Shown in pieces: positions 39,121 to 64,000 of a stretch of DNA of 64,000 bases. The stretch spans positions 11,346,001-11,410,000 of the forward strand of contig OU612075.1 in the NCBI GenBank assembly GCA_914767715.1, given 5' to 3'. Under the pieces are notes generated by a model that saw nothing but the letters and a program-made list of their open reading frames with translations, ran no database searches and was not told where the DNA came from. The first letter of the stretch is position 1. Each line of letters starts with the position of its first letter. The translations under genes were made by a program, and so were the position numbers. The stretch is from Membranipora membranacea (taxonomy: Eukaryota > Bryozoa > Gymnolaemata > Cheilostomatida > Membraniporidae).

Positions 39121-39245
39121 TAGTGACACTAACCATACTCTGACAGTTATCCAGATTAAGGTTGAGGTATATTGATGACATCCCATTGTTTGAATAATTA
39201 AGCCCACAAGATTGGGCATTAAAGCACCCATACAATGAAGATTGG

Positions 39246-39765: not shown

Positions 39766-40311
39766 TTATTTTATGGTTCATTGTGTGGATGCTTTAAATG
39801 AGACTGTTTCACAAATTTTACGTAGCCAAAATTCTGTACAATTTTATCAATCGAAATGGAAACTCGTCAAAATAATTGACACACGAACTGAATTGAAACA
39901 GCTCAGCAGCGTTACTCTTGCACATTGTACATTAGCTGTTCAGCTTACCGCTGAGGTCTTGTTGATTAATTGTCTGCTAGAATCATCCATTGTCTCACAT
40001 CCCAAGTTTTACTTTTGTCAGCCACTTGAGTCTAACTGAGCGACTACCATTACATGACCACAGAACCATAGGATCCAGGACCGCTATTCATTCTAAATAT
40101 AATTCTAAACAAATCTTAACCAGTTACTCAAAAGTAACCCAAAAACAGCACCCAAAACAAACAAATTACACCTATAACACCCATTATATGTATGTATGTA
40201 TATATTTGTATCAATTCTCATGATAAAATCAATGTTTCTCTTGTGCTCTGTGAATAAAAATAAAGTTTTAAAAATTATAATAAAACATTGACTAGATTTA
40301 TAATAAATGAA

Positions 40312-40689
40312 TCAAGCTATTCGATTGAGCAGTTTTACACATAATGATCGAAAACAGTATTTACGGCAGTTTACACGGTAGGCTGGCACTCTGTATCTAC
40401 CAGATGGGAGTTGTTCTAGCGTTATGACAGTGTCTTTGCCCGAAGCGAACATTCTCAGGCATTTAGTTTTGAAGAATTTATCGAATATATCGTCTATGGT
40501 TGTAACTTCAAGCCTGCCTTTGCTTAGTCTACGTGCTGTGTTGATGAGGTGATTGTACTGGTTCTTAATATCAGATGAGAGGTGTCCGTATATAATACAT
40601 AGGTGATATTGTAGGACACTTTCGAGAAATGAGGTGTATGCCAGCTTAATGGTAGTTGTCTTGACATTCATAAAGGCTAGCTGCTTCAT
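40312..40689 (-). mobile_element. LINE reverse-transcriptase C-terminal fragment
   Basis: An open frame of 125 codons reads TTIKLAYTSFLESVLQYHLC, NHLINTARRLSK and, near its end, LPSGRYRVPAYRVN then CVKLLN. This follows the CR1/L2 pattern (FYxSFIESVLTF ... IVNTASKI ... LPSGRRYRVPxxKxN ... AIKLLN). It is 5'-truncated; no catalytic YXDD lies in this part. A partial inverted copy of block A follows at about 40,800-40,960. Confidence 0.75.
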
Positions 40690-41298
40690 GATGAATTACC
40701 CTTAAAAGATTACATGGTCACCAACTTACCACCCTTCGACTGAAACTTTGGCACAGGGTAAAAACTGTGCTTACCCAAAAATAAATCATTTCATAAAAAA
40801 ATGCTGCCGAATGAGTTGGATGAGATTTACAACATGACAAAAGCATGGATAAGCTATACAACATCGATGGTTGTATGTGTAAATCATCAAGCATTTATGA
40901 CTTAATCTGTTACAATCTCTGAACAACTATCCTAAACCTCAGCCGACAGACATAAATAGCATTATATTTTGACCTTAGTAATATTAATTTATTGATTAGG
41001 TGAATATGTAAATATGTCTCATTGGTCACAAACCATGGTTACAATATAGATCACTTCACACATAGGCTCCTGATCTTTTTAAGGTCATGCCTGATACTAA
41101 CTTGAGAACTACCGGTCTGATTATCTTGATTTTACATTCTGATTGTAGCTTTTTCTTGCTTAGCAAATTTTAAACCCTCAATTTTATTTTATTTTACTTT
41201 TAATGATTTTGATTACCATTCAAAAAACTTAAGCCACTAGTGCCTATGCAAAATGATAGGAGCTTTACGCAAAACGGGCTTTAGGCATTATCGCCAAT

Positions 41299-41755
41299 GT
41301 GCATTACATTCCATATTATCTCATTCCAACCGAATCCATTACACAATCAATACAACTCCTACCTCTTCCTAAGCTTGTTTGTTATTTCACTTCACTTTTT
41401 GCGCATAAGATAAACAATTTTTTAACACCTCCATTTATTTATAGAGGGTTTAAAAACACTACCAATTTCAATTTTCGTGATAGACATTTACTTTTATATC
41501 ATACTGACGATCTAAGATACAAAGTTTCTGCTACATACAATTCTTTACCATTACATTTGAGATCTAAAGAGAAGTTCAGTTCATTCAAAACATTACTATT
41601 CAACTATATATTATCGACTCGACCAACATCATTGATGATATTATTTCCTTTCTGTTTCTTTTTTTTTCTATTAAAATTTTTTTTTCTGGCACTGAGTGCA
41701 AAACATTTCGAATGAGATGACTTTGATTGCCAATAAAAGTATATATATATAGGAG
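41299..41755 (+). mobile_element. LINE reverse-transcriptase C-terminus and 3' end
   Basis: The 138-codon frame contains RDRHLLLYHTDDLRYKVSAT then YNSLPLHLRSKEKFSSFKTL, the terminal block of many non-LTR polyproteins (FSFRAxxxWNSLPxxIRxxxSFxxFKxxL). The 3' end CCAATAAAAGTATATATATA follows. The same 3' end is at 19,995-20,115. It is 5'-truncated. Confidence 0.75.
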
Positions 41756-42008: not shown

Positions 42009-45000
42009 ATGACAGACACAAATTTTTACAGACCTGATGGTCCTTACTCTTGGATAGTACTAGCTATAGTTATATTGAATTCTTTCAGTACATACGGTTT
42101 CACTGCTGGAACAAATGGGGTTCTGGCGGATGCCATTCCCGATATTTTCGATAAGGATCAGGCTACCACAAACATAGTGCCATCGATGTCCATCGCTGTA
42201 TATCTGTTTGGGAGTAAGTTATCTAAATTCTGCCTAAATGATTTGTCACCAATATCACTGTCTAAATCATGTCAATCCGATCCACCTTTTTGAATTGCTT
42301 TGTGTTACAACTTGTGAATTAATAGTTTATTGATATCTTTATAATATGGCAGCAATGTGCATGCTCTTCAATATTCTGAGTAGGTATCACTACGAAACCA
42401 TTTACTCACCTACATTTATAACATAGCAAATATTACACCATGCAGTCTCATTATATTATCATTAGCAATTTACCAGCGATGACTTGGCCTTCCACAACTC
42501 TCATCAACAGAGTCACTAATGGCACTGCAAGATGTAAAAAATGCGTATAATATAAATCAGGGCCATAATATATAGAGAAATGGTAGGGAGGTAAAAGCCT
42601 ATAAAGGCTACCCAAAGACCAAAGCATGTTATAACATGCTTTGGTCTTTGGGTAGCCTTTGTAGGCTTTTACCTCCCTACCATTATGGCCCTGATTTATA
42701 TTATACGCATTTTTTACATCTTGCAGTGCCATTAATGACTCTGTTGATGAGAGTTGTGGAAGGCCAAGTCATCGCAGCTATCGGAGCTGTTCTATGTTTA
42801 CTTGGTGTCGTATTATTGGCATTTGTCACCATGTTATGGCAGTTAGTCTTATCCTACAGTGTGGTCGCAAGTAAGTCATTTATGGGTTCTACTTCTTACC
42901 TCAAGAACATTATAGTTTGTCGAAGAACAGGGCTATCATTAAAATTGGTGGTCTTTTGAAGTAAAATTGTAACAGCCATCACCTGTCACGTATCAGGCTT
43001 TCACAATGAATGTTCTGGCTGTCACTGGAAATGCCATAATAATCATAATTCCGATTCACTTCCAGTGGCAAAAATAATGACATTTAATTACACATTTATT
43101 AACAAAATTACTTCCCTGCTGGTGCATGCAAAGATGGGGGAGGGGGGTTGCCGGTAATGCGGTATCAATTTTTGTTTAAACGTTTATTGACAAGCAATCT
43201 TCATCATTAAAATGATGTTCTTCCGAGTGTGCCAAGATAAAACAAAAATAAATAAATATTATGGAATAAATAGATAAAGAAGAAATATGGAAGATAAAGA
43301 TTAACAATGAAAATGGTTATGTCTTAGACATGAAATACATAAATGCATATTGTCGGAATGACTTTAAATTGTTTGTAGACCTGATCTGTTGCAGAAGGCT
43401 AATGAAAATTATAAAAAGATTGCAAAGAAAATTGTTTGATGGAGGTTTCAGATAATGCGTTTCAGATAAGGTTTCAGACAATTGGGGTAACTTGCCATAA
43501 AATTTTCATCTGTCAATATTTATGCTTTCTGCTTCTGCCTCACCAAATTCTTGATTCCCCTACCTACCCTACGATATATGTATATTTTCATTGTCAGGAG
43601 ACATTATACAAACGTGGATAACTTCATTCTTTAAAGCATCCGTTAGATAAATCTTAAAATAATCAGAGGAACTGCTCCAACTTATAAGCTTCAAAATGAG
43701 CCAAGAACAGCTCAAACAGCAACTAGGGCTGGTGTTACGACTTATGAAGGGAAGGGCTTACTGGGGGATATGATGTCATAAACATACATTTTGCGTATAT
43801 GTGTACCATTAGAAACCTTGGGCTTGTGCTATTTCATCAAAATTGTATGAGACGAGCTGTAATCCAACATAGCCCGTGTCATCATAGTGATCAATCTATT
43901 GCAACAAATAAAGGAGATTGACAGATATTTTGCTTAATAATCCTTTGAAAGTATCAAGTTAAACTTCCTCGCATTCAATCCAATTAAAATATTGTTTTGA
44001 GCCAATGCACATATTCTAATTGACCGCATGACCAGAGCAACACTTGCATCTATTAGACATGAACTGAACAAAGTTTCAAAACTATTCTTTCCTGTAAAAT
44101 TCTAATCAGGTTAATTTTGAAACCATGGTCAGATCAGGGGAGATCCTTCACAAGTTGAATGATAAACATTGTTGTTCTAGATATAATCAATAGAAGGTGT
44201 CAATTTACATCTAAATTTGAAACCATGGAGCGCTTAGTTCTAAACCACTATTGGTGTAAGTGATTACCTGCAAACAATTAATTCTATTCAAAGCAGGTAT
44301 TATCATTTGGATGAATCCTCAGTAGTTTCACAACAATGCAATAAACGGTTCTATATTAAAACCAGTTATGAATCGCACGGTGGATTCATTTCTAATCACT
44401 ATAAGATTGATGTTGAAGCATTATCAATTCAAAACCCTCCCCAACGTATAATGAGCTGAACATGCTCTCCTCCAAAAAAGAGCTGGTCTGCTAGTTGTGA
44501 ACTAATGTATGATTACATAGAGTTTAGCCTTGGTATGAGAAAGCACTATTACGGCCTAGGGAGATGCGAAGGGAGATTATAACATTATATTCTATCCTAT
44601 ATTCTTTATCCCTGAGTAACCCCTCCGTTGTTTCCATGTAGAACGTGATTTATCTTCACGTGTGGAATTTCCCACTGACTGACAAACGTACAGGCACTGA
44701 CCCTCCCAACCATGCAAACTTAATCATTGACCAGAATGAGTAATAGATTGGCTCAGTAGGCCTAAAGCTGATACACAAGACAAATCTTAAAATTATAATC
44801 TGACTGATTCCATGTATAACAGCAATTATGCCACAACTAGATTCGTATCTGGAACGCCTGGTTATAACAACAACTTTCATGCGAAGTTCTTTGTATCTGT
44901 TTCCTCACAGTTTTTTTTGGGAATAGTTTGATGAATACTTCCCTTGTCATGTTCACAATACATTGTCACAGTTATATGTAGAATTAGCCTATTTATTTTG

Positions 45001-48000
45001 GTACTTGATTTGAGATAATCTATATGAATATATATCCTATAGTTAAGGCAACAGTGTTGTGTGCTGAGACCCCCTACCATCACAGCCAATCGCTAGCAAT
45101 TGCAATCAGATTTTAATTTATTATTTAGGAGTTGTCCTCCTTTTAGCATGCCGTATTGTCACAAAATATATTTACTTACATAGCGTTTGAGTAGTGGTTG
45201 TTAAGACCCTAGCTGCGTGTGTGTGAAGTTTGCCATTCATAAAAATTCAAGACTTGACAGACCGTAAGGCACGAGGTAAGTATACTGTAAATCCCTGGAT
45301 AATTTTATTCAGTCTGAAGTTGTAATAGAAAAAATCAGCTTGAGTGCATTCAGCTGCAAGTGAAATTACAAATTTTATATAATAAAGAGTATATACAGCA
45401 TGAATGGAGTACAGTCCAAATAAAAAGTTGTTCCATGTTATAACTGGGATTGGAGCGGCACAATGTCATAATCTCAAATCTGTATGCAATAGAAATATGC
45501 CAACTGACCTCTCATATACAGAGAAAAGTTTCTTAAGTATGACAAGACAGTGATAAAATTGGAAATCGCACCATCACACTACTAAACAAATACTCCTCGC
45601 TGTGAGATAACTTTACTGTTTTTATAGAAAAGAATGTCCATTGGTGCTTTGTTCCTAAATGCACTTATCATAATATTACTTACATTATTCTGATTTGTGT
45701 CAGATATTAGATATGCCCTTATGTTGGGGTCATAATCTACACTGGCAGAATAGCACACTAGCATTGGGCCATTGAGTATCTTGTCAATGATCCATATTTC
45801 TGGCTGACCATCATCCAGCACAGATAAGCAGACTGCCATTCCAACATGGTAGCTACTCCCTTTATAATCCACTGATGTGACAACCCCTCCTTTATGATGA
45901 TACGATGTTGGCGGAGTTACCAAATCAACCTGCTTGCTCCAGTGGTGGAATGAGTTGAGCTGGTATCTGGTGGCTACTGTCTTAGGTACATTGATGAAAT
46001 TACCTGTGGATGGAGCAAAAAGCATCAGGAGTTAAACAATCTCTGTATAATATTAATGTTTGTTGTGAATGCTGAATGCGCTGATGTTGTGAGTATTGTT
46101 ATAGAATTATTTAGTGTGAGGATGTAGCTGTTAGTGGGGGGTTGAATATAATTTTTTTTGTGTTTATGGTTAAATTCTGACTGATTAATATTTTATTAAT
46201 TATCTATAGCATGCATATAACGATGTAAAATGATTGTTGGGTCAGAGGTAGTCCAAGCAGGTCCAAGTAGGTCCAAGTTTGGTCCATTTGCCGGTATTTG
46301 GAGTTGTTCCCCCTCCACTGGTCCGATTGCTGCGACTAACCAATAGAAGAGGACCACCTGGTTTGTAGGCACACTGGATCAAACTGCTTCTAGGTCAGCG
46401 GTCAACAATTGTAAAACTGATTCATATGATTTCTGCATACACGATCTAACACACAACAATAATATCGTAAGGTTTCTATTTTTCAAATTGGCAACATCAT
46501 TTGATCATATTTGATAGCAGTACTCATAACCAAAGACTCTCTTTACTCACATGATGATGATGCAACTAGTTTAGCCATCTTATGCTTGGCTTCAAATCTG
46601 ATGCACCAATAATCACTTAGTGGGCCATTACGTCGCACCGCCTGTCCATAATGGGTCATGAAATGATGCTTGGGCGTCAGTGTCTCTCCTGGGTATATCT
46701 GTAAATAAAAGGACAGCTGTGATGGCTAATAGGGTTAAGAATATATAAGCTCATGCCAAATAATCAGGTTTGATGACAACCGGGAACATTGTTTATTATA
46801 AGGATACAAGAGCTCATTTAGTACATCAGTCCTAGATCAAGCATGCGTTTCCCGCCACCACAGGCTCACCAGTAGAAACGGGACAACTGGAATGCTGGAA
46901 AATTTACATAAATCCCTCAATGATAAAACTGATCAACGCACCGATAAAAAGTTCTCATGGTGAACCTGGACAAGCCATTCCAGTACATAGGTTGAAGATT
47001 CAGTTGTCACGGGACTGAATATATATTCCACAATCTCTCTCAGTTGAAGGTACACTTCCCATTTCTCATCCCCCTTGCCTATCACACTCCCGATCATGAA
47101 AGGTAGCAACCTCAGCAAACACCACATCTGAGATGATGTCTGTCTGACCTTGACTTCCCCACGCTCCAACAAAATAGCTGAAGGTTTGTTCTTCTTATCA
47201 TGAAATCTACAAGAACACAAGTCAATTCATTTATATACAAACTTAATTTATATTCAAATTTCACTGATCATTTGGTTTATAAGAAGCTACGATATGATAC
47301 AGCTACGACGGAGATGGGGGTCCGGCAATAATTTATTCGTGAACAGATCTGTACAATACAGCCCATAAGCAACTCTGTTTTTTGGACCATTGATTAATCA
47401 TCTATCGTGTATCAACTACACTTTAATTCTTATGTGGTTGGCAGCATATCAGCTGGAGGCAACAATTTTTGATTATATGGTGCTGACAAAAATAAGGTAG
47501 CTTTCCTAATATCATTCATTTGTCTCCGTCGCCTAAACCACATTGATCATAAATGGAGATTCAAACCTATCAATTGATCATGTTATTGGGGTTTGAAAGC
47601 AAATGGCTTACCCGTAGTCATAAGATTTGATGATACCGTTGAGTTCGTTGAGAGAAATGAGCTTGCTACTAATAACATGAGTTAGCAAGAGAGCAACTTC
47701 CTTCTTAGCGATGCCTTTGAATATGTCATGCATGAGATCAGGGCAGAATGACTCCACAGCATTGAAGTATTTCAGTTCATCGAAAACGCAGGGCCCCTTG
47801 ACTCCATGTTCTGATGATCCTGAGGGATTGTTAACATCAGTTTGATGATCTTGAGTATTCCTGAGTAAAGACTTGTCCTCCCTTGTAGCATGCTTGGTCT
47901 CAGCCTGATGCATCTTGCAGAATCGACAGAAGTGGTTGGCAGAAAAGCTACCCATGAAACCTTGACTTTCGTTTGCTGCTAAGTTATCTCCTGGTAAATG

Positions 48001-51000
48001 AACAATGGTACCATATATTTTCTCTGGCATTCCTCTTATAACAAGTCCATTTTCCAGTCTCTTCAGGTCTTTAATCAATGGCCGGAGAACTCTAGCATGC
48101 CCGAATTCTTTTACATCACTTGAATGGGCTATTATAGCTAGGTGTATGGATGATAGACTGCTCCTGTTTGGACAGTTTAATATGGAGAAGTAGTACATGG
48201 TGAGCTTGTTGATGCCAGATTTACTTCCTAGAGGATTTCCAACCTCGATATCGTCATTGTATACTGCTATCTTGAGGGCACAGGGATGGTTTTGGAATAG
48301 CTCATTTGTCTGTATGAGAGTCGCCACACCTGCTTCATGATCACTGAATTAACAAAGTAAGGTAAATTTAAGAACCCAAAATCAGATGTGATATCAACTG
48401 AAGGTAAATCTGACAAAATTTAAAGCAACCATTGGCTTAACCTGTTTTACGATGCACACAATTACACCTTGTTTGGCAAAGATGTTGGCGTTTCAGGATG
48501 GTAAGAATTAGAATGTTAATGTTTAGCAAAACTCTTAATGAAAAGAATATTTCTCAGCGTACTTCTGTTGTTTAATCAAAAATGTAAAAAGGTACAAGTT
48601 CTTACCGAGTTTGATTGGATACTACAGCGTTTCTGAATTCAGGCTTTGAGTACAGCAGTTGAAGGGTTTCCGTCAGAGGCACGTACTGTATTGTTGAAGC
48701 AACTGTTTGGGTCCCTGATGACTGAGAGTCAATTCGCGATCCTACAGCAACTTCATGTGGTCCAACCATTCCCTGAGCTATTAGTGTTTTGATTCTATGG
48801 TATTCAGTCTTGTAGTTAACAAAAGGATCGCCAACAGAGACAAAGATGTTTCTCATTTTGACCGAGAGAGTGTCATCAGCTAGCAAGAAAAAATTGAAAA
48901 AGATAAAAATATAAATTAAGTAAGAACAAAACAATGTCATGATCAACTGCATGCAGTTGGCTTATGAACACAAGGAACAGCCAATAATCCTGTCAATGCT
49001 ACTCCTGTCATTAGTAGTCATGTTGGGGCAAGAAAAACCTCAATCTGTGGAGCTTTTCAGTATTTTTATTTATTTGTCATGTTAATGAACGAAAACTCTA
49101 TTTTGAATATGGTTATAAATTGAAATTTACAACCACAATATGGTGTTACCGTTTTACTAGCCTAAATTAATCAAATACAAGCCTAATCTTATATTCACTA
49201 TATTCTGATGCTTCGAATGAGTTGTCCGCTCACGAATCAAATGAAGAATGCTTACGATTTCTATTATGATAAAACTTAAAAAAAGAACTGCCGCCAGTCT
49301 TTTTCACTAACCATTCATCTACGCCATCATATGCTACCAAAGCTAATCAACACGATTCCTGAATTTGAATGACGATGCTACCGGAAGTAAACCTAAATGC
49401 TGTTCCCATGTATCGATTAACCCTATAATCGACATGGTCAATGTCACTTTCATTAAAACTGTTCCTAGAAGCAATTAAACTATGACAAAAACAATTCTGG
49501 TTCATCCACATTAGTTTTTAGCTTAGGAATAGATGAAATAGAGAATATTAACCAGCCTTTCACTAGCTCCTCAGATCTTCGGCGAACATCCTCCAAAATG
49601 GTGTTCATCAGCTCCGAAGTTGCTTCTATAACATGTTGAATGGTCGACCGAGTTGTGCTTCCTTTACTGTATAACTCTAGTACGAATCTGGGAAATATAA
49701 TTTAGCAGCTGATAGTGCCAGTGCATAGTTTTTTTATTATAGTTAGCCATCTCAGACATATTGACAGAATAAGAGTGTATTTGTGAGACTTCAACTGTCA
49801 TTTTTATTATTTTATTATTCGCTGAATAAAATTTATTGCTGTGTACAATGAGTAACTGGGTACTAACTTAGCCCAGTCAGAGTTTGTACTTAATTTATGT
49901 GTTCACCGTTGGTACTCCACCAGATTTTCCACATTGAGTAGCATTGTTACGCAATGTGATTTGCAGGTCACATCGATCATCGCCATTTATCTGATTTTCG
50001 ACAAGCAAATCAATCGCCAGTAAAACGATGGATGGGAACTTACCTTGAGACAAACGATTCTATGTGAGCGGACCCGTCCATTTGTATATCAGCACATGTG
50101 TTGTCGGCATCTTCCTGACACATATCATCTACTGAAGGCTCTGGACATTGACCTGCATACATTCATCAAGGCATATTAATTACAGCTTTTAAAGGGTCCA
50201 AAATAAATTCATTGACTTTTATGTCACATTCAAGCCCAGCCAATGCACAATGGGTCTCCTTGCTCATGGACGCTTTCTTGAACAGAAGGGAAGTCAGCTC
50301 ATCATTTTACTAAGAGTCAAGATCAAGATTAGAATGAAACTGTATTGAGGATGGATAACATGTCTTCAGCTCACCTAGTGCAGTCGGCAACATTTGTTCT
50401 GGCTGAGATACGTCCTCAGGAGTTTTTGTGTAGTTTGTCTCTTCTACATTTGAATCATGAGAACATTTGCCTTCTATAAATTATAAAATAACACTGGTAC
50501 TTGGCATGGGCATCGTGAAGTCCTTTTCCGCAATGTAAATGCCAGTCACATACAGAGTTATTTTTCAATCGGTAAGTCATTGTTTTTAGAACCAAGATAG
50601 CAAATCTCAGTTCAATCCTCCTATTATATTGAAGTCAGTATTTAAGACAAACTTCTTGACCTGCAAGTTCTCATTCCACTTTCCACAGTTAGGACGCATA
50701 CCTGGGAAATTGCTCTGCTGAATCTTAGAATTTGGCCCGTGTTTACTTGTGACATGGTTGGTGAACTTTCTTGTACCCGTCGTGTTAAATGTACAGTTTC
50801 CACATTGCTGAAATAAACAATTATCAAAACAATGCAAATGAGGAGGACATCGATATTATCTTTGAGCAGCCAAATGATGACTTGTTGAAAAAAATTCTAA
50901 CAACTTTGAAAACGTCACAAGAGTTTTTGTAAACGAAATTTTGCTGCTCAGCATAGGCACACAAGCTGAAAAATTCAAGCGAAGTTATTCAAGAGCACTT

Positions 51001-54000
51001 TTCTGGCATATCGAACAATCTACATGCTTTACCAGAAAGAGGTATACACCCGAGGGCGCTGGGGGCTGGCACAGTCAACCTTTAAAGCTCCCCCAATGTG
51101 ATTCAAACCCACAACTCTTGCAGCACTAATCGCCTGGTGCAGCAAGATCTACATGCTTTACCATATAGTATTCAGACAGGCGACAGGGATATATCCAAAG
51201 AGCTATAATACCTCTAGAGTGGACAATGCAGTGCTCAAATGAGTAAATTCATGGCACAAAGAACGCAATCGGTTAGCAAAAGCTAAAAGGCAGATCATTG
51301 ACTTTATCATTTGCAATGAAGTTAAATTATTTGCGCACATAGCCATTTCCCCATGTATTTAGCACCATGCAGATCACTAAAAGGTCATTTCTCTAGCAGT
51401 CAGTGGATTAATATTCACTGTCTTCTCACATTAAAATAATCCAAAATCTCAACTGCAAACACATCCTTTTAAATTGCAACTACAGGGCTATCTGGTTGTC
51501 CTTGCCAGCCATGGTAGGTATGTGTCCTGTGTCTGAAGATATACCTTCATATCCAGCAAGTTCGCTTCATCTGTACAATACAACCTACGATGGCTTGAGA
51601 TAACAGGGGTTGCAGGTAGCCAGTTTTAAAAACTGATTGTAGGCGCGACAGAAGACAGCTACTTCTGTGATTTGCAGTAGCAATTTACATAATTTTCAGA
51701 TTCAGATTTTATGCTGATTCAATTCAAGTGTAAGATTTAGGGCTTTGATTACATGGCATTCAATTCAGTCACCAAGTGCTACCCAGGTGGCAGCTGGAGG
51801 TTTTTGTAGTGCCGGAACTTTTCAACAACTGTACACAATTTGTGTCATACAATTTTTGCTCAGCTGCATGTTACTGTTAGTATACAATAAGAATTGAAAT
51901 CTTCAAACTAACTGGGTTCTAACCAGGTTAAGTCAACATTCTACCTACCCACGAGACTGTGCTAGAGCATAACCTCACAGAGTAAGGATATATATAATAT
52001 ATTCATATATATCTTTACTATGTGATAACCTGTTGTCATAATACTGAAATGTGGCATTTGAAGTTTATGAGTTTCACCTCCAACTGCTACTTTACTAAGG
52101 TGTAAAAGACTTGTACTCTTTTACTCTCACATTCTAATATGCTAATTGCTACTAATACAGTTGTACAGAATGTAATCAATGTCAGTTGCATGGTACTGTA
52201 CGGAAAAAATAAACTCACTGAGTGTGTAGGAGCTTTAATGAGAGACACCCGACACAGCTATCATAAGCTAATCAGGCAAGAACACTCAGCGGTAAAAACC
52301 GGCAACACCTGTAATTGCTTACTAAGATGTTTCCACTGTTGAATTTTGGAGAACATAGAGAGAATTTTTACTCATTACTAGAGAAATGACTTGCGATTGC
52401 ACGGCATCATTGTGAAAAAGTGGCCTTAACAACCCCAAAAATTAAATTGGCATATTACTCATAACTCTAGCAGCATAAAGCTAGCCTTGTTCATGCGGCC
52501 AAAAAAAACCAAGACCCATGGTCACGTGAACAAGGCTAGCACAAAGCTTGTCCAGGGAAGTAATTTTAGTGTGACAAAATATTGCAGTTGCCTTTTGAAT
52601 ATTTAAAATTAATCTATCTCTCTACTCTCTAGAAAGTATGGGAACATGATAATATGAAACAAAGAACTAGTGCATCAGCTTACAAATTAGAGCTATTGAT
52701 AAAGGCACTAAATTATATGCTTATTGTCAATACCCAAGCCCTAAACCATAGAGTTGACAAGCTGGTACTGAACTGATAGAATTATCTGGCTGAATGTGCA
52801 AATATATAATAACAGAGACAGGACACACCTAAATATAGCTGGTAGGAACTATCCATGGCAAAACCAGCTAGCCCTATAATTGCGATTTAAGAGGATGTGG
52901 TTGTGATTTTGGCCTATGGCAGACCTATGGGAGACCATGGGATATTTTTCCGCTGACTGCTAGAAAAATTATCTGCAAGTGATCTACACTGTATTACATG
53001 AAATTTTCCTTTACAAAAAACATTAAGTTCTCTAAAACTCAATTTTCATGCCCAATGATAATAGTCTTAATGATGTAAACACTAGCCATGCACAATCAGA
53101 TTCCGTTATGTCATGGATTTACACAATTAGCTTTCTAAAATTTTTACAACTCCTTCAGCTAAGTTCAATGACCAAACCCTACTGTGACATAATGCTAGAA
53201 TTCAATAGCTAAGCTATTCAACTCACTCACAAAGAACACTCAGTGGCAAAAACCGGCAACATCTGTTGTTGCTAACTAAGATGTATTCGTGAGTGGATTT
53301 GGAGAACATTGAGCTATTTTTACCTCACTACTAGAGCAATGACTTGCAATTGCAAGGTATCATTATGAAAAAGGGGATACAACTGCACCAAAACTTAAGT
53401 TTGCGTGCCCAATTATAATGCTCATAACTCGAGCAGCATAAAGCTGGTCCAGGCAAGAATCTTTAGTGTGACAAAATATTGCAGTTGCCTTTCGAAGTTT
53501 TAAAATTAACCTATCTCTCTACTCTCTAGAAAGTATGGGAACATGAGAATATGAAACAAAGAACTAGTGCATCAGCTTACAAATTAGAGCTATTGATAAA
53601 GACCCTCAATTCTATGCTTAATTGTCAATACCCAATTCCTAAACCATGAGTTAAACACTATAGAGTTGACAGTGCAGTGCTCAAAGCCAGGTCTTTTTAT
53701 TAAATATTTACAACTCCTTCAGCTCCACTCCTGCCGCTGCTGGGACTGAACCAGGATCTCCCTCGTCAGCACCCTTTGAAGTCATTTTGTGCAAGCGCTC
53801 GCTGACCATTCAGCCACGCCTAATTGGATTTAGTTAGATTCAACCGGTATGTGTATTCCGTCAAAAAAGTCATTCGTCCCAATCGGAATATGACTTTAAT
53901 GGCAATTACTCCCGAAATTGCAACATGGGACCATTGTGATTATGATATCGCTCTTTAAAAATTGTATGTATTATGTCACTGTTAATAAATATGTAACTTG

Positions 54001-57000
54001 GATCATAACTCACCAGCTGATCCGGAATACCTCTGTATCCCTTGTGATGTGTCTCACGTAGATGAGTCATCAACCGTCGCACACTAAGATCCCTGAACTG
54101 AAGATGACAATATGAGCATTTCAGTGGACTCGCACTTTGGTTTTCGGTGACAGAAGCTAGAAAAATGATATGGCTGAACTTGAAAAGAGCATGTAAAATT
54201 GTCTGCTTAATCAGTAGATCCTTGAAGATATAGGAATAATGGGTAATTAGGGCATTTCACACATAGTTTAAATAGGTGGTCAAATGGAAGGACCTTTACA
54301 TCAGTACTCATTCAAATCTGCAAAACTAAATGAACAACCTGCACAATTTACTGTGCTCTTCCACAACTGGAAGAAAATGGTCAGTCTTTTAACTTAATGG
54401 TTGCTCTTTCCATATTTCACTATGCACTGAAAAACTAGATATTATCCATGGAATTAATATATGTTCGTTATTTTTAAGCCTATAGTTTCATCACATTCTT
54501 TGAATCTCAGACAAAATTCTCAACTATTGGATCTGCATCTGAGACGATCTCCGAAGGTGAAGAGGTAATAGATTTATAGCCAAAACATTGCTGTATTAGA
54601 TTATATTATCAACATCCATTGGGGTAGGGAAGGGTAGGGTAGGGAATAGGCCTACATTTGCAAGCAAAATGGAAATGTGTGCAGGCAGGCATAGCAAACG
54701 GGTTCAGAACAACTTACCTGACTCCATTGTTTATTGCAACAGAATATCCTTTCTTTAACTTCAATTATCTTCAGAGATACTATCAGTTGTTCACACCATG
54801 AACAGCAAACAGTGGCAGAGAATAGTCTTCAAAGAAAAGTAATAACAATTTTAGAGCAAATATATTTTGCTTAGAACTTATGTGATGGAGCCTTTACAAT
54901 GGGGAGATTAAGGTGAAGAAATAATAGCATACAAAATTGGTTACTGTTCATAGTTTAAGTCATTGCTAGAAGTGTAATCATTACATCACCCGCATTGCAA
55001 CGATGAGCATAACAGGAGCCATGTCAACATTACTAGAGGAGGATTTTGAATTTGATGAACACATACTTCATCAATTTGGGCAGAATGTTGTCAGCATAGC
55101 TCAAGGTAAGAACAATGACTGTGCATTTTCGGTATTTAATTCATCAGGTTTTGGAATGAAGTTCATTGGTTTTGGAATTAGAAAGATTCATCCTAACTTA
55201 AAAAGCCTACTGGTTTAAAACTTGTTTATAAGTAGTTGATGAGAAAAATTTCCACAGCAAGAGTGAATGATTGCTGTATTAGGCATACAATGTTAGTTTC
55301 AGACTGTTTTCACCTAAGTAGCCACCGACCATTATATTCTACCCCCAGCACAGAAGTGACATTGTGATGCGACCCTCAGCAGAAATGTCATGGATAAGTA
55401 TAGTGGATAAGATAAGCTAATCATGTTCCTGTTAATTGTAGAGCACAAAATAAACTCAGTTGAAGTATTCCGAAAGCTGGATTATCAAGATCTAAACATG
55501 TTTACTTCTGACTATTCAGTATTAGTAGAGCTGCGGAGCTACTACAAGTCACTACAGGTATGGGTTAATTTTTTTTCATAAGGCCTACTTGCCAATCTAA
55601 CCATTGATCTAACCAAGGAGTAACAACTTGAGTAAAGAATAACTTCCGACTGATGTTTGTTGGAAATATATATACATATATTATACCTCTATAAATGAAT
55701 AGATCACAGGACAGGTCTACTCCAAAATCCCAGGTTTTGTAGTAGACCTGTGGAATAGATGTCATTTTTTCATGGTGGGACTGGGTGTTTAATTCATTTG
55801 CCAGTGCAACAAACAGCTACAGTTCAAGCAATGAACTCCCTCTTGGTTCAAGCAAGTTCATGCCATGAATCAATGTTAAATAAGGCGCAACTGTTCACAT
55901 TTCTTTCATCTGTTTGAATGCTCTAAGTAAAATAATCATACTAGTTCATCTTACTCACCTTCTTCAATTTATTATCAGTGCAACTCCTTAGGTTCCTCGT
56001 CTGTAACTGTAGTATTGTCTGAAATTATTGCTCACTAAACACTACTCTGATTAGTTCAATAGTTGATACATCCTGCTAATTGGTTCCTTAGAACAAAAAG
56101 CTCTCACAATTGGTCATGACTCTCTTTTAAAAAAAGGCACCAAAATGATTTAAGTGGTAGTTTCACTTTCCATACAAACTGAAACTACCTTGAACATAAC
56201 TATTTGGGATTTCCATGTGTGGATAGTCAATGACAACGGGGATTTTCCTGACAACCAGTACTATTAGTCAAGCAGTTAGGTACACCAATGAACTAAACTT
56301 AGTTCATTGGGTACAACCCTTTGATTATGGCTTGTCATGCAGGCTACTATGTTAACAGCTTGAACTTCACAGTGTGGAATTGACATGCACAGTTGCCTGT
56401 ACTGTAATAGTAGCCTACCGTACACTACAGACATTTTCTTGGCTCATTTCTTTCCATAAGTATAAGGTGAAACTTTTCTTGAATTAACATGCTGAAGAAG
56501 CTTATCCATAGGCACCTGAGTTACAAGCATGTATACATTGCCAATGTCTATGATCATAGAAAGTGGCAAAGTATACATGCTTGTAACTCCATATGGCTAT
56601 GAGCATATCCGACAAGTTTGTCAACTCACAATCACCAGTAGATCAATGATGTGAATGATTGGAAATGTGGCCATGACTGAACAAGCAGGCACTTTTAAGC
56701 TGTTACACTCTTTGTTGATGTGAAGCTCTAACCATCTAAATCTTCCTTTAACAGACTTCCACTGACTTACAAAAAAGAACTAGCTCACCGACTTTGACAC
56801 CGAGTGGTCCTCAATCAAAACGACTGAGCACTTCAACCCCAATGGTGAGTGAATGACCCATTATGATGAGTAAAACATCTGTATGGCTGGAAAACTGTTC
56901 TGACTTTAAATTGCTTGTAAACGAAACACAAGGAGTCAATCAGCCATCAAAATTTGCCTGTTTTGTGAAGACTTAACATAATCTCTAGCATTTGATCAAC

Positions 57001-60000
57001 TTAGTGGATGACATCAATTACTGTTGGCCTCAAAAGTTTGTTGACTCCCCAAGCCTGATTTGACCAAGCGTTATATACACTTTTGTCATCGGTCTCTGCC
57101 ACTACAGTAACTGATACACAATGACAGAAGATGATACATATCTGTCAATAAAAATTCTTCTGTATTCTGGAAACCCTATTCATGCTGACTTGATGGATGT
57201 TGTTGGGTTCGTTTTAGATGCCACATCTTATGAAAGACGATGAGAGTGATGATGATAATGGTTTGCAGGTATGTAACTTGTGCTATTTTCATGTTATTGA
57301 TCAATGGTTGATTTTGATTAATAAATGTATGACAGAAGTGCACCACATACACCTGAAGTAATTTTGCCGAGGTTCATGTCGTCCATATTTTATAGCCACG
57401 CAAAAACAATTCCACAAAAAGCTGTGCTATTTCGGAATTTGAAGCTGGTTTGTGAAAATATTGCAATCTGACTCAAGTGACAAATATTTTGCACCATAAT
57501 AAACCCCTTGATATATTTGATTGATCAAACATGCTTCTGATGAACTAGAGATTGTTAGATCACAACTCAGAGCAGGGGGAGGCTATTTGATGACAAGAAC
57601 AACATGGAATATTTTTGTCACAAAATATTCATTCGTACAAAGTGAATTACAATCTCATATCAGGTGCATCAAACGTTCTCACAGTTATTAGCTCATTAGC
57701 CTTGGCGATTTCGGAAATTATTTATGACTGGGTGAATAGCAGTCGTAAAATTCATAGAGCTAATCGACCTCATTTATATAGTTACAATAGTCAATGATCA
57801 ATTTAAACAGTTTGCCTTTGGTGGCACACACCGATATAAATTTTTTATGCCACATGTGGTGAGTGGCAGTGTCCAGAACATTTTCCAGGGTCTTTACTTT
57901 ATCAATTTTCAAAGAGACAGTGCTCAGGTCAGGCTAATACCATTGGAGTTTATGATATTTTGAGTTTTAAATTGTCCATGAAGTGTCTCCAGTCTAGCAA
58001 TCAGGATGGTCGAGCAAGGCTTGCAACTAAAAAAATACTGTGTCATCAATATGTTAGTACACAAATTATTTTGTTTGGATGTAGGTGACAAATGAAAGTA
58101 TTCTCAACAGACCCAACATGAAATCAGAATCTATCACTTCAGCAGACTCAAACTCACTACTGACACATTACAGAGCATCATGGAGCATGGAGTCAGAAAG
58201 CAAAGTAAAAGTTACCAACCTTCCAACAACAACGGTGAGATAAAAGTCTTGAATCCACCCAACATTTGTTTACTTATGTCATGTATTCAAATTTTGGAAA
58301 AATTGTCTAGTTTACAATGTATTGGTGGTTATCCATTATTACTGCTGAGTTCCTGCGCTACAAGCAACACCCCCTTGTCCATCAAATCACAATAATGGTT
58401 TTATGCAAGCAGGGAGGGTGTAAGAAGCATTACAATGAATCTCTGTATAAAGTTGTTTCCCCCTTGACATTAAGGGGATAACTCCGAACAGTTTGCCAAG
58501 ATAAACGTATTGCCAAGCATAGACACTCTAGACAAAATAAACCTCTCATTATATTTCAATGTAATATTTTCTGAAAGACCTTCAATGCAAGTGGTATTTC
58601 TTACAGTGCTCATCGAACGAAAGTCATAATACTGAGGCAGCTCATACTTCTAAGGTGCCCAAGACATCCCTGATTTGTCAGACTCCTCCCAGTACACCAA
58701 AGGAACCTAAAAAACCTGACTCTTTCCTGCTCTCACAGTTTGTAAGTAGTATTTTGTTCTGTTTTCGTTGAGAAATAAACAATAACTTATGAAGATAGTC
58801 ACAGGTGTTGCTAATTCCATTTTTCTTATGCTCGCTCATCATCATATTGTTTAAGCTGTGGTGTGAGTGAATAAATATATATTCGATATTGACTGTCAGT
58901 GCAGGGTTCCAACCTGTGCACTGCCTGTGTAGCTGTTGTTACTCTAGTATACAAGCAATCATATTGTGTCTATGCATAAAGGATTTTTACTGAACTTGTC
59001 ATTTCAAATTTCGTAGATTGTGCAATAGAAACTGCATGAGATAAAGTTATTGTTAAGAAATCACATTTTTGGTATCATTCTCGAATTCTCAGTCTAATTT
59101 AGAAAACCCATTTTCGCTTAAAGTTGATATGTGAAGGCACTAGAAAGTTACTACTATAATGATAGTATATACAAAATAGTACCCTTTTAGTACCTTCCAT
59201 CTCAACTTTTGAATTGAAATCAGTGGAATCTTTGCCACTTCCTGTTGATAAACCTTTCTAAATTAGGCTAAGAACTCTAGAGTGTCACTAAAAACCTGAT
59301 TCCTTCATTATACCACTGAGATTTGATTCGCCAATTCTGTATTTTCATTTTTGGTCAGTCTTCTCAAGTATCATGGGGATTTTGTTACAGTGTTCCAGTC
59401 TCCGATTAGACTTCAAAAGCATTCTCGATCCCGTCATTGTTAACTTGGAGCTGCAAAAGCTGAGGGATATCGCCAAATCGGAAGAGATGCCGAGCTGGGA
59501 GAAGCGTCACGTTCTCAACCAATCAGCAGCTTATGTGGAAAACCAAGTGTATGACAGATTCGGCACATAGTGAGTGGATATTATAACAAAAGGAAATATG
59601 TGGTTCTCAAGTCCTGCCTTCCACCGCTAAAACCTGCACAAGTACCACTTAGTTTCATGAGTAAATTTTTAGGTAGACAGTAGACAATCAGAAAGTTCTG
59701 TTGTAATTTGAATTTATTGGAAACCACGAAAAATGCAAAACAAATCGTAGAGCAAGCGACCAATATCTATTACCTTATTATCAACATGAAATATATATGT
59801 ATATATATCTTTATATTTTATGTATATTATACTAGTTAATCAGAATTGTTTTTGGATAGAATCACGCTCAATGTGGTCTAGTGCAATTGGTTAGCAAGCT
59901 TATTATCCACTGTCAGGAGATTAATTGCAGTAGTTAGTAAGGGACCTATTGGGTGAGCAATCTAACAAGTGGATTGTCCCAACTTTCAGCACCTTGGGTG

Positions 60001-63000
60001 TTTCTACTACCTTGTGTTTTGAGATTCTCAATCACTTTCAAACTTACAAGCATAACTCCTACTTCATTTCTTACAGTTTGATCGACAAAATGGTGAAGTC
60101 TGTGCTTGCCCGGAAATTAGTTGAATTCTTCCCATGTACCTTAGTACCCTCCATAGAATGTTAGCACACTTAAGTTCATCAACTTACATCACTCTGAATA
60201 ACATCATCCATTATCAATATGTTAAATCTCCGATATGATATACCCCAATAATGATGTGTTCAAAATGTATACTCTCCTAAAGCAATACTAGAGTTGTCTT
60301 CTCCCATTACATGAGGGGCCAACTCCCAACTGAATATGAAGAAAAAAAAAACATCCAAATGATCAGTTGCCAAGTAACCTCAAAGCTTCAAATCCCTAGT
60401 CAGTTGATGACAGCCAAATGTCAATATGATACCACTTGATATGCAGCCACTATTTCTCAATAGTTTTCCAGTGATTAATCTGAGTTAGTTATGTTATGAC
60501 TTGTGACTAGACTTCCTTTTAATTCTAGATACATAAAGAATTTGGGCGCATTCTCCCCACCGTCGACTTCGAGGAGTTTACAGGATTCGTGGAAAAGTGG
60601 CTAGAAAGAGTTGAAACTGCAGGTAAGCCAATGTTTTCCTTAAAGTGAAAACTTAGTGTACTCAATCTAGTTGCAGCCTACCAATAAATCGAATCAAAGT
60701 GTTTAGGACGACTGCTGCTCAATCGTCTATGAATGTTGAGATGCGATAGCCATATTAGTATTAAACCTTGACATGATACTTTACCAAGCACAACATTTGA
60801 GTACAACGTGGGATATGTAGTGATATCAATTTGTGTACTAGAAATGTATTTGCAGTCCGCAGTTCAGATCTTTGATGATAACCGGTTCAATTTCAATCTG
60901 TGATTACGAGTTCAAGAATTGCAGTAGACTTAGCAGCTTGTCATGAACAATCTGATGATTTTTTGCACTATAACTGAAAAATGCAGTGATCAATACCACC
61001 AAATTTATCACAACAAGCAGCTGAACCTATTGTAGTTTTCTCATTCTTAATTGGATCAAGATTGATTGAGTTACGAAAAATATGAATTGCTGGCTGCAAA
61101 TCAATGATAACACCATTGCCACCAGGCATTTCAATGCCGTATCTCACCCACACAGTTATATATCTCGCTGTCTCAATGCCATCCCTCCATAGTACCTGTT
61201 TCTAGAAAAATTGTGGCATCCCCTGAGGCATTGTAGTTGCTCCCATCAACCACATCTATCTATAAGTTGTATTCATTTGGCTGGTAAATTCCCCGCATCA
61301 GGGTAGAGCAGATAGACATTTACAATTTGTGGTATCTCTTCCCCCCAGCCGGTTAGCTTCTAATTGACAATATTAAACATAGCTGAAAATAGCATTTCAG
61401 TGCAAGATTTATACAGACATTTTAACAATTGTCAAAATTATTGTGAGATTATCTTTTGCAATCTTCTATCTTTTAGAGAATCTCATAACGATGGTGAAGT
61501 TTCTAAGCCAGAAGGCAAAGCCGGAGAGGGAGTTGATCATGGAGGCTGACCCTGTCAGCAGTGCGCTGTGCACTAAAGTGCCAGTGCTCACATACTTCAG
61601 CCGGAAGGTCTCTGTTGTGGTGCCTGGAGGCTCAGTCCTCAAGGCAAGGACCATGGCCGAGGCAGTCCGGCTGTTGTTTATGCTGTTCTGGGTATGTAAC
61701 ATCGAATACCCAGACAGCATAAAATCTTTTTATGGAGTACTAGACAAATTTTGTAGGATCATTTATAAAAAAAGAATAAACCTGGGCCAACGTGCGAGAG
61801 ATGCGGCGTGCCGTGTAATGAGAGAGTCCATCTAATTAAAAATCTAACATTTTAAATATTTTTTATAATCCACTTTTAAATTTTTTAATCCGAATTTTCT
61901 CACATCTCACATAACACACAAATTTTATTCCCAAAATGGCTGCTAACCAGCAGTTGTATTTTTTACTCAGGCATTGTTTTTATACATTTTATAGCCCTAA
62001 ATACCTTCTTTTGTTACGAAATCTCTTATTTTTACTTCTTTCTTTTCATATTCATACTCAATTTTGATAAAAAATAAAGCAAGTGTGAACTACAAATAAT
62101 TTATCGTATAATATTTTGCACTACATGGAAGCAGAAAAGTAAACAGACAAATCGAGGTCTCAATCATCTCCTACTTGACTCGAACAAATCATATAGAAAG
62201 TTACTCTGAAACCTCCAGCCTAACAAATTACACTCAAGAGTGGTTTGGTAGTGAAACCACGATACTATTGGAGTGACCATTCTTTGTAATCCTTATGAAA
62301 CCAGTGTTATTACATTACACATTTGTTGGTTTCTAATCAACACACAGTATTTTAGTTTCAATTATGAACTAGTATCAAAATGAAACTACCGTGCGATTAT
62401 AGATCATCAATTAGTGTATACACATAATTAGCAATTGAGACAGTTTTGAAACCACCGTGCGATTATATTAATACTATTGTGCATTTGTTTACATTGGGCC
62501 ATTGACTAGCCTGGACTGGGTACAATGATGACCTAGCATTAAAATGAAACCACCGTGCGATTAAATACAATACAGTACCAATTAAGTTTGATACTGCATT
62601 GAAACCACGGTGGCACCCGTTGGGGCGAAACCACCGTGGTATGTAAAAAGTTTCAATATTAAACCAAAATTTATGAGTGTGCGATCTCACGAGCGAATAT
62701 TGAAAGGGTCAACATTATTGCTTCAAAACACAGCTTCTGGTGGTCCAAGAGGGTCAATTTTGGGCTTGTTTTGAAGCTGATTAGCTGGAGAAACAGCTTT
62801 GATAATCTCGATCTTAATTCCATGAATTCATTAACCTTTGTTGAGAATTTCAACCTTTGCATTTGGGCTTGTACAGTGAATAGTCATAAAGACCTCACAA
62901 TTGAGCAGGGGGACAACAATTGCCAGTGGGCACGTGGTCACGAGTAGCCAGTATAACAAGTGTAATTGAGGTGACTTGTCTATAAGGTAAACCTGAACAC

Positions 63001-64000
63001 ATAATATTTTCATGTTTTATTTAGCTTGTATTTTTCAACGTAGAGTTATTATTCAGAAATCTGAAATTTTAATCGAAATAACAAGAAATTTTTTTAAATT
63101 TGTGGTGACCCCGTTGTAAAATTAGGTTGTGACGACGTTATGAGGATCATGTATCTTCCTGAGAGAAAAAACACTGTCCTGCCTTCACTGAATCCCTATC
63201 ATTTAATGTAATTACTTCTGTCTGCTAGCGAACTGAGAACTGGGGGTGGAGTGACGTGACTTTTTGAGAAACGTCTCCGCTGTTTGTACAGTTTGATTGT
63301 TCGAAATCATTTTTTCTCCCCCTCCCCCCCCCCCAAAATGCACCTTTTACGTTTGGATGACTGTTCATAAAGGTCCGAAAATTTTCACTTTTGATATTAA
63401 GAGAGAATTACACTGCAATAAATGTAATGTTCACCTGACTTTACACATACGACTGTGTTGATCATGGTAACATGTGTCATGATATGTTGTAGTAGCAACC
63501 TAGCTACCACTAGTTTTTTCCCACTGGGTATCTATCAATTTTAATAACTTAGACTAGACCTAGAATTGCCATGCATTTTTACAGTGTTAAAATATTGCCT
63601 AACTATTGGAGAACAGGCTGCCAGACTATTTATTGCTTTGTTAATTCCTTGATTTTTTGAATTTTTCAGGTTTGGGATTCAGCTTCAGTTTTGTTGCAAC
63701 AATTGGAATGTTTCCACATTACTTAAAAAAATGCAGGGCAGCAGCATATGCCGGTATTGGATTAGGGATGGGCATTGGAGTGGCAGCATACCCAGTAATA
63801 GCTTCATCTTTAATCACAAGACTGGGATTCAAATACGCGATACTCTCTTTGAGCACGTCAATGATCTTTCCTATTGCATCTGTCATCATTTTCAAGCCAC
63901 AACTACCAAAGGAAGAGAATGGGATATCTTTTACAAAACTACTGGCATCATATTATGCTGAAACTTTTAGGCATTTTGTGACAGCATTCTTCATTTGCAA
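42009..64000 (+). CDS. Monocarboxylate-transporter-like protein, copy 3 (partial, 20.8-kb intron)
   Basis: The exons match copy 2 one for one: 42,009-42,213 (205 bp, starts MTDTNFYRPDGPYSW), 42,727-42,870 (144 bp, PLMTLLMRVVEGQVIAAIGA) and 63,670 to beyond the window end (GFSFSFVATIGMFPHYL...). All sites are GT-AG, phases agree and no stop appears in the visible part, so the gene looks functional. The visible portion covers the N-terminal half of an MCT/SLC16 carrier including the DGPYSW motif. Intron 1 (513 bp) holds an inverted duplication that includes the start of exon 2. Intron 2 is 20.8 kb because a large two-gene mobile element sits in it; the same intron is 311 bp in copy 2. It is oriented opposite to copies 1 and 2. 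Whether the long intron is still spliced cannot be told from sequence. Confidence 0.8.
42476..42775. repeat. 300-bp palindrome spanning intron 1 and exon 2 start
   Basis: The sequence folds about 42,631/42,632 (centre GCATGTTATAACATGC) with no spacer. The right arm runs through the exon 2 acceptor and its first 49 bases. The left arm is its reverse complement with one 12-bp insertion. The arms are otherwise nearly identical, so the event is recent. In RNA it would form a hairpin of about 140 bp that buries the exon 2 acceptor. Confidence 0.9.
43655..43935. repeat. Left half of the split repeat
   Basis: This is the reverse complement of about 39,770-39,490. Shared words are ACTGCTCCA(A/G)CTTATAAGCT, GGGGGATATGATGTCATA and CATTTTGCGTATATGTNTACC. 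Homology stops near 43,935, where the large element begins. Confidence 0.75.
45582..54727 (-). CDS. DDE transposase-like protein with N-terminal zinc fingers (812 aa)
   Basis: Eleven exons: 54727-54718, 54156-54014, 50807-50702, 50473-50375, 50152-50044, 49687-49557, 48879-48606, 48343-47612, 47206-46942, 46698-46551 and 46003-45582. Phases agree at every joint and no stop occurs, giving 2,439 bp. Residues 17-40 form a C2H2/BED-like finger (CSYC...THLRETH). Residues 53-74 form a second (CGNC...HVTSKH). The core shows VYNDDIEVGNPLG (Asp321/322), HLPGDNLAAN (Asp410), FCRFC (Cys430, Cys433), CPDLMHDIFKG (493-497), LTPKHHFMTHY (630-640) and RFEAKH (Glu659). This order fits an RNase-H-fold D-D-E transposase resembling EnSpm/CACTA proteins and a family of uncharacterised animal proteins. 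It probably acts in the nucleus, cutting and rejoining element ends. Intron 6 would start GC (AAAG|GCTGGT) instead of GT. An AATAAA on this strand lies at about 45,304-45,309. No codon is broken, unlike the relic at 20.8-24.6 kb. Structural role inferred; not tested. Confidence 0.75.
51967..52033. mobile_element. 67-bp foldback-family remnant
   Basis: The ends TCACAGAGTAAGGATATAT and ATATATCTTTACTATGTGA are imperfect inverted repeats. They match the termini of the foldback element at 11,688-12,182. The interior is reduced to an AT run. Confidence 0.6.
52205..53680. repeat. 450-bp direct duplication, about 1-kb period
   Basis: About 52,280-52,755 recurs at 53,230-53,670. Shared words include AAAACCGGCAACA, GTGACAAAATATTGCAGTTG, CTCTCTAGAAAGTATGGGAA and ACTAGTGCATCAGCTTACAA. 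The duplication lies in intron 2 of the transposase gene and helps to make that intron 3.2 kb long. Confidence 0.85.
52483..52537. mobile_element. 55-bp mini-MITE with 11-bp target duplication
   Basis: The ends AGCCTTGTTCA and TGAACAAGGCT are perfect inverted repeats. Flanks AGCATAAAGCT and AGCACAAAGCT form a direct repeat with one mismatch. The second unit of the local tandem duplication (near 53,440) lacks the insert and shows the empty site CAGCATAAAGCTGGTCCAGG, which supports the boundaries. Confidence 0.75.
53735..53830 (-). mobile_element. tRNA-like SINE head
   Basis: On the minus strand GGCGTGGCTGAATGGTCAGC resembles an A-box region and GGTTCAGTCCC resembles a B box, about 60 bases apart with a class-II-like spacing. 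The anticodon and acceptor stems do not fold properly, so a tRNA-derived SINE head is more likely than a tRNA gene. Confidence 0.4.
54728..55002. promoter_or_regulatory. Putative bidirectional promoter
   Basis: These 275 bp separate the start codons of the divergent transposase and SAM-domain genes and must hold both 5' UTRs and promoters. A TATA-like palindromic stretch (GCAAATATATTTTGC, about 54,855-54,869) lies near the centre. No other motif is obvious. Confidence 0.5.
55003..61835 (+). CDS. SAM-domain/SAMD3-like protein (447 aa), transposon partner
   Basis: Ten exons: 55003-55105, 55442-55557, 56755-56844, 57218-57268, 58085-58234, 58607-58741, 59391-59569, 60077-60143, 60529-60622 and 61477-61835. 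They join in frame to 1,344 bp. The exon 8 donor (TTA|GTACCC) is weak and is the least certain joint. Residues 1-73 look like a SAM-type helical bundle (HILHQFGQNVVSIAQEH..., FRKLDYQDLNMF). Residues 74-215 are Ser/Thr/Pro-rich with an acidic run (DDESDDDN). Residues 216-447 resemble SAMD3-like proteins: PSWEKRHVLNQSAAYVENQ with YDRFGTY, then VPVLTYFSRKVSVVVPGGSV and LLFMLFWVCNIEYPDSI. The molecular role of that C-terminal region is not known; SAM domains commonly mediate self-association or protein contacts. The divergent layout with the transposase suggests an accessory transposition factor. An AATAAA lies at 62,073-62,078. It is not a DNA polymerase subunit, despite a superficially similar Ser/Thr-rich linker. 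Confidence 0.65.
56518..56589. repeat. 19-bp perfect inverted repeat in intron 2
   Basis: GAGTTACAAGCATGTATAC and its exact complement enclose 34 bases and extend with TTGCCA/TGGCAA after a small gap. It may be a tiny MITE or a local inversion. It lies in intron 2 of the SAM-domain gene. Confidence 0.8.
62210..62645 (+). repeat. Subterminal repeat cluster at the right end of the element
   Basis: The core TGAAACCACCGTGCGATTA is found nearly perfect at about 62,381, 62,446 and 62,544. Weaker forms are at about 62,207, 62,251, 62,296, 62,599 and 62,626. The last two (GAAACCACGGTGGCACC and GAAACCACCGTGGTATG) abut the inferred end and are themselves partly palindromic. CACTA-type transposases bind arrays of short subterminal repeats, so this is the likely binding region. 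Confidence 0.75.
62645..62815. repeat. Right half of the split repeat
   Basis: This is the reverse complement of about 39,410-39,240. Shared words are TTTTGGGCTTGTTTTGAAGC then TGATTAGCTGGAGAAACAGC, plus TTATTGAAAG-like text. Clear homology starts near 62,683, and a weaker match (AAAAAGTTTCA...) reaches back to about 62,645. Confidence 0.75.
62816..63669. other. Rest of intron 2 of transporter copy 3
   Basis: No gene or recognisable repeat was found, apart from a C-rich run at about 63,318-63,335. It ends at the acceptor TTTTTCAG before exon 3. Confidence 0.5.

Follow-up and report, generated by a model that had tools for sequence, protein, structure and literature searches.

A damaged copy of a probable young, two-gene EnSpm/CACTA-like transposon in the bryozoan Membranipora membranacea

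Do two divergent genes in the genome of Membranipora membranacea belong to one mobile element and, if so, to which kind? The question concerns a stretch of 64 kb (C11:11346001-11410000 of the 339-Mb, 18-contig genome; hereafter the window). A sequence-only reading had proposed that it contains a transposon, from 43936 to 62645, in which a DDE transposase (gene 1) is paired with a SAM/SAMD3-like protein (gene 2). We confirmed the presence of two multi-exon genes in opposite orientations, their start codons being 275 bp apart. Our analysis indicates, with a probability of roughly 85%, that the window holds a crippled copy of a young EnSpm/CACTA-like cut-and-paste transposon of ≈ 20.1 kb, with gene 1 encoding the transposase and gene 2 a divergent partner.

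The genome was searched with the right-end DNA of the window (62200-62645, 446 bp). This yielded at least 15 matches, 12 of which covered the full 446 bp at ≥ 91% identity, the window's own included. Counts out of ten given below refer to the other copies L002-L011, read with their surroundings (L012, L013 and L015 lie outside this set, and of L014 one neighborhood was read). The right-end region was present in all ten, and both ends were found in seven (c2, c3, c5, c6, c7, c8 and c9), which bears out the proposal of one mobile unit with both genes inside shared termini. As to the other three, the left end of c4 lay outside the stretch read, the right end of c10 was altered, and the left end of c11 was not found within the stretch read. 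The gene 1 core exon was matched at the expected place in 9 of the 12 full right-end copies (the window, c2-c8 and c10) and had no match there in c9, c11 and L012. The complete copies measured 18,715-23,626 bp (n = 7), five of them 20,108-20,144 bp. The copy in the window (43936..62681) is colinear with the other genomic copies; its left end is truncated by 24 bp and its right end is complete. Among viral contigs, 36 pattern matches were obtained, none of which was confirmed as a relative.

The complete copies start with CACACTCAAAAATC and finish with AAATTTATGAGTGTG, that is, the termini are CACAC..GTGTG. Their flanks vary between copies, and in 7/7 the dinucleotide just outside the left end was identical to that just outside the right end (TG, CA, TA, TG, TA, CA and TA), giving a 2-bp target duplication. 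No 2-bp flank match was seen for c10, the copy with the altered right end. These comparisons also moved both ends first assigned to the window copy. The right end is at 62681: beyond this point the copies no longer share flanking sequence, and an older repeat resumes. Position 43936 is not the true left end, as the copies with a left end read start 24 bp further out with CACACTCAAAAATCATAACCTTGA. In addition to these 24 bp, 96 bases of the older repeat are missing from the left side of the window (counted on the repeat copy at 39219-39798). The copy in the window has thus lost its left terminal repeat; the terminal inverted repeat on the right, which reads CACACTCATAAATTTTGG in the inward direction, is at 62664..62681 (−). 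That the element interrupts an older interspersed repeat, as had been noticed from the sequence, was confirmed by the two halves of one split copy (43630-43932 and 62682-62834) and by the second copy at 39219-39798.

The cluster of subterminal repeats noticed at the right end was recovered as five TGAAACCACCGTG-like units, each with ≤ 1 mismatch, at 62381..62638 (+). A single inverted TGAAACCACCGTG unit (≤ 1 mismatch) is found on the left side (44376..44388, −), and no further unit with ≤ 1 mismatch occurs elsewhere in the window. Each of 20 base shuffles of a full copy contained none. The CAC..GTG termini and the subterminal repeats of the EnSpm/CACTA kind (five right, one left) are both present. 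The exact CACTA pentamer is not matched, nor is the 3-bp target duplication described for fungal EnSpm elements in the part of the source covered (PMC12730594), the duplication here being 2 bp. Since the ends are CACAC and not CACTA, we call the element EnSpm-like within CMCT rather than a strict CACTA element.

Gene 1 (45582..54727, −) is an EnSpm-like DDE transposase gene with an open frame of 841 residues, its model being open in five other copies and backed by 70 homologues. It consists of 12 exons on the minus strand (54727-54718, 54156-54014, 50807-50702, 50473-50375, 50152-50044, 49687-49553, 49464-49382, 48879-48606, 48343-47612, 47206-46942, 46698-46551 and 46003-45582), and all internal splice junctions in the window are AG/GT and in phase. 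The earlier statement that the gene joins in frame holds, and its length of 812 residues is replaced by 841, the model including the 83-nt exon 49464-49382. In c3, c5, c6, c7 and c8, the model keeps an open frame and every splice site. A 2-base deletion shifts the frame in c2, exons 8 and 9 are absent from c9, c10 contains seven stops, and no gene 1 was found in c11. Gene 1 of c4 was read only to exon 2; hence gene 1 is open in five of the nine copies judged.

A search with gene 1 residues 330-780 found 70 relatives in sea cucumbers, a sea urchin, fish, insects, a barnacle, the protist Lithocolla and others, and 42 of these were aligned. The second catalytic Asp, both Cys and both His were invariant (42/42); the first Asp was present in 40 (2 gaps), as was the Glu (1 gap, 1 Asp). 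Mapped to gene 1 by this alignment, the set comprises D350, D439 and C459-x2-C462 in the exon 47612..48343 (−), and H664-x3-H668 and E688 in the exon 46551..46698 (−). A C(2)C plus H(3-4)H arrangement is the signature of the EnSpm, Mirage, Chapaev, Transib and RAG1 clade, according to the part of PMC12730594 covered. The proposed identity of gene 1 as a DDE transposase of the EnSpm/CACTA kind is thereby supported by a set present in 40-42 of 42 relatives. The Pfam family Plavaka matched gene 1 weakly (E 0.011 to 0.041, below cut-off), and there was no Pfam match to Transposase_21 (PF02992) in gene 1; among its relatives, Transposase_21 matched P0012 (E 2e-6) and, more weakly, P0014 and P0006, all under the cut-off.

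A structure model of a gene 1 relative gave RAG1, BbRAGL and HzTransib as the best solved-structure matches. The RNase-H core of RAG1 type that we predict for gene 1 is shown in this relative's model only; no RAG1 or Transib chain was among the best 60 sequence-profile matches. Exons 2-3 (50702..54156, −) encode a putative C2H2-like zinc-finger region. The Pfam zinc-finger matches there were weak and all below cut-off, and profiles of gene 1 relatives match C2H2 chains. The last exon (45585..46001, −) encodes a predicted beta domain of 139 residues, which, judged by its structure model only, is probably BAH-like. Foldseek also listed lipid-binding and ribosomal proteins for it with low probability, two of which outrank the best BAH row by E-value.

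Comparing gene 1 of the window with that of the five open copies, we counted 10-13 synonymous and 6-9 nonsynonymous codons (dS 0.018-0.024, dN 0.003-0.005). A dN of about 1/7 to 1/5 of dS suggests, on small numbers, that gene 1 is under constraint. Residue 529, in the exon 48343-47612 (−), is Lys in the window versus Glu in 5/5 open copies and 40/42 relatives. The transposase of the window may be inactive owing to K529.

Gene 2 (55003..61835, +) had been read as intact with 447 residues. This was not so. Its exons in the window are 55003-55105, 55442-55557, 56755-56844, 57218-57268, 58085-58234, 58607-58741, 59391-59569, 60077-60137 (cut), 60529-60622 and 61477-61835 (+), and comparison with full copies placed a deletion junction at 60137..60141, where ≈ 1.3 kb is missing. 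Exons 9 and 10 fall within the deletion, as does the end of exon 8, and 447 residues is the length of the deleted version. The gene 2 of full copies comprises twelve exons and encodes 563 residues. An open frame with every splice site in place was found for it in 8/10 other copies (c3, c4, c5, c6, c7, c8, c9 and c10); a single stop interrupts it in c2, and c11 holds part of the gene. Both genes are open with all splice sites in 5/10. Thus, the copy in the window is damaged, and copies with both genes open exist elsewhere in the same genome.

How old is the family? Pairwise substitutions among c2, c3, c5, c6, c7 and c8 amounted to 0.10-0.36 per 100 aligned bases. The value was 0.59-0.68 for c9 against these six closest copies and 0.93-1.01 for the window copy against all seven complete copies. 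Judged by this divergence, the family has spread very recently, and it may still be active. The mobile unit, its ends, target duplications and recent spread, the gene structures and the catalytic set are all established at the level of sequence comparison.

What, then, is gene 2? Pfam offered nothing beyond RuvC_1, whose E of 0.018 did not reach the cut-off. When residues 220-555 were compared with a protein database, none of 2824 candidates matched at E 0.001. The SAM domain and SAMD3 homology first ascribed to gene 2 were not confirmed: there was no SAM match in Pfam at E up to 10, and a PDB sequence search with the first 83 residues returned no SAM chain. These negatives weigh against the idea that gene 2 is a counterpart of vertebrate SAMD3 acting through a SAM oligomerisation domain. 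In its favor, the core of gene 2 resembles the same-strand tail of a fish protein, P0029 (Coilia grayii), at z 3.1, and we take this tail to be typical of fish SAMD3-like proteins. The score is, however, weak (4/500 shuffles were as high), and a single-sequence profile comparison of gene 2 with P0029 gave a probability of 0.2%. We regard a SAMD3-like gene 2 as doubtful.

P0014, a protein of the sea cucumber Holothuria leucospilota in which a gene-2-like tail follows the transposase, showed a stronger resemblance. The tail scored 73 against a shuffled mean of 36.2 (z 7.3, 0/500 shuffles), whereas the transposase part scored z 0.8 against gene 2; the corresponding value for the transposase part of P0029 was −0.2. 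Between gene 2 and P0014, BLASTP gave E 0.001 and single-sequence hhalign a probability of 12.9%. The tails of P0014 and P0029 compared with each other at z 2.3 (18/500 shuffles). None of the 70 gene 1 relatives was recovered by phmmer with gene 2 as the query. P0014 and P0029 are predicted proteins that carry transposase part and tail on one strand, not head-to-head. The expectation that the two genes are repeatedly neighbors elsewhere is therefore supported only in part, as regards their association in P0014 and, weakly, in P0029, but not as regards the head-to-head layout.

Within the M. membranacea genome, a search for gene 1 listed 38 matches. Further gene 1 families, of which some are multi-copy, were among them, with identities of 40-67%. 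The gene 2 matches listed all lie more than 70 kb from any diverged gene 1 match, the nearest pair being 72 kb apart (C8:6.01M and 6.08M). This was not a fair test, because the search for diverged gene 2 scored 77 of 212 candidates and because gene 2 may diverge fast. Gene 1 was not found beside the diverged gene 2 places C7:22.92M, C7:20.18M and C8:6.01M (≈ 20, 10 and 9 kb read, respectively). As C7:22.92M is merely a 3′ fragment, these three places neither support nor refute the pairing. A second five-copy family of the gene 1 kind, at 41-42% identity, was also observed (C3:14826324, C3:14862462, C2:4598458, C8:9860507 and C8:25417496).

Gene 2 might instead be a dispensable passenger captured by this one lineage, the transposase with its zinc fingers and BAH-like tail working alone. 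The lack of listed neighbors would fit such a passenger, as would the changes in gene 2 among copies (2-11 nonsynonymous and 0-5 synonymous codons per pair), in which constraint is not clearly visible. Yet gene 2 has stayed open in more copies than gene 1, one sea cucumber protein and perhaps one fish protein have a related transposase with a gene-2-like tail behind it, and diverged gene 2s may have been missed among the candidates not scored. We consider a passenger unlikely, slightly more so than a SAMD3 counterpart. That two unrelated elements sit side by side by chance, as opposite-strand genes from neighboring insertions can, is extremely improbable and was rejected, since both genes lie inside the same ends, with matching target duplications, in seven complete copies whose places and flanks differ (c9, with gene 1 partly deleted, and c2, with gene 1 frameshifted, are counted among the seven).

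We favor a transposase with a partner protein. In the model we propose, the gene 1 protein is a transposase whose RAG1-type RNase-H core is preceded by C2H2-like fingers at the N terminus and followed by a BAH-like domain at the C terminus. It would pair the element ends and cut at CACAC...GTGTG, as family knowledge and the target duplications suggest, and the cut ends would be joined to 2-bp staggered YR targets; cut-and-paste is the most likely mode. Gene 2 would be expressed divergently from the 275-bp intergenic region (54728..55002), a presumed shared promoter. The most likely role of its protein is to help unite the ends by binding either the transposase or the TGAAACCACCGTG repeats near the termini. 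Such assistance is probable by analogy with plant TnpA, as described in the part of PMC1636069 covered.

The transposon sits in an intron of a Major Facilitator Superfamily (MFS) gene, presumably monocarboxylate-transporter-like, with exons at ≈ 42011-42213, 42726-42872 and 63670-64000 (+; Pfam MFS_1 E 1.9e-11 on the joined exons). A long inverted repeat, noticed by eye at ≈ 42480-42785, contains in its right arm the start of a transporter exon, and this exon start is duplicated in reverse beside itself. Open frames at 40312-40695 (−) and 41260-41715 (+) presumably resemble the final part of a reverse transcriptase of LINE type.

The characterisation of animal CACTA elements is still poor. Young, near-identical copies with both genes open offer a natural system for studying a RAG1-fold transposase with a partner protein, a cooperation relevant to the origin of the RAG1-RAG2 partnership. 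A BAH-like tail, if true, would tie target choice to chromatin. Tentatively, and against somewhat longer odds than even, the element may represent a distinct animal lineage: RAG1-fold and EnSpm-like, with a dedicated divergent partner and a BAH-like chromatin reader on the transposase, so that targeting or escape from silencing is built in. The partner family may then be a widespread, unrecognised transposon protein annotated as host genes; if true, some multi-copy genes in animal annotations may be transposon genes.

Within the literature searched (listings and the starts of abstracts), we found no description of a divergent two-gene layout, and the portions covered do not mention a BAH-like tail on such a transposase; in that scope, the element belongs to a known superfamily clade and has a new arrangement. 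Published animal CACTA elements also make 2-bp target duplications, according to the portions of PMC1636069 covered. In the same portions, SmTRC1/TRC shares with our element an EnSpm-type transposase, the 2-bp duplication, spliced transcripts in an animal and a second protein thought to do the job of TnpA. SmTRC1 differs in that a CCC core and a repeat of 54 bp characterise its ends, and in that alternative splicing and tandem reading frames, rather than a divergent gene, give rise to the second protein; a BAH-like tail is not mentioned for it there (PMC1636069). Maize En/Spm, encoding TnpA and TnpD, differs in being a single transcription unit with alternative splicing. Like our element, it carries subterminal repeats, though at both ends, and it makes a 3-bp target duplication. 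The CAC..GTG termini and the combination of a transposase with a second protein are shared (PMC1636069, in part). Fungal Plavaka elements belong to the same wider clade and share the weak Pfam match of gene 1 noted above; their ends differ, being TGT..ACA or CATCA..TGATG (PMC12730594, in the part covered). Transib, ProtoRAG and RAG1-RAG2 share the C2C plus HxxxH zinc site and, in the model of a gene 1 relative, the RAG1-like core fold. Transib and RAG make 5-bp target duplications, as opposed to 2 bp here, and ProtoRAG is likewise a two-gene element with a partner protein.

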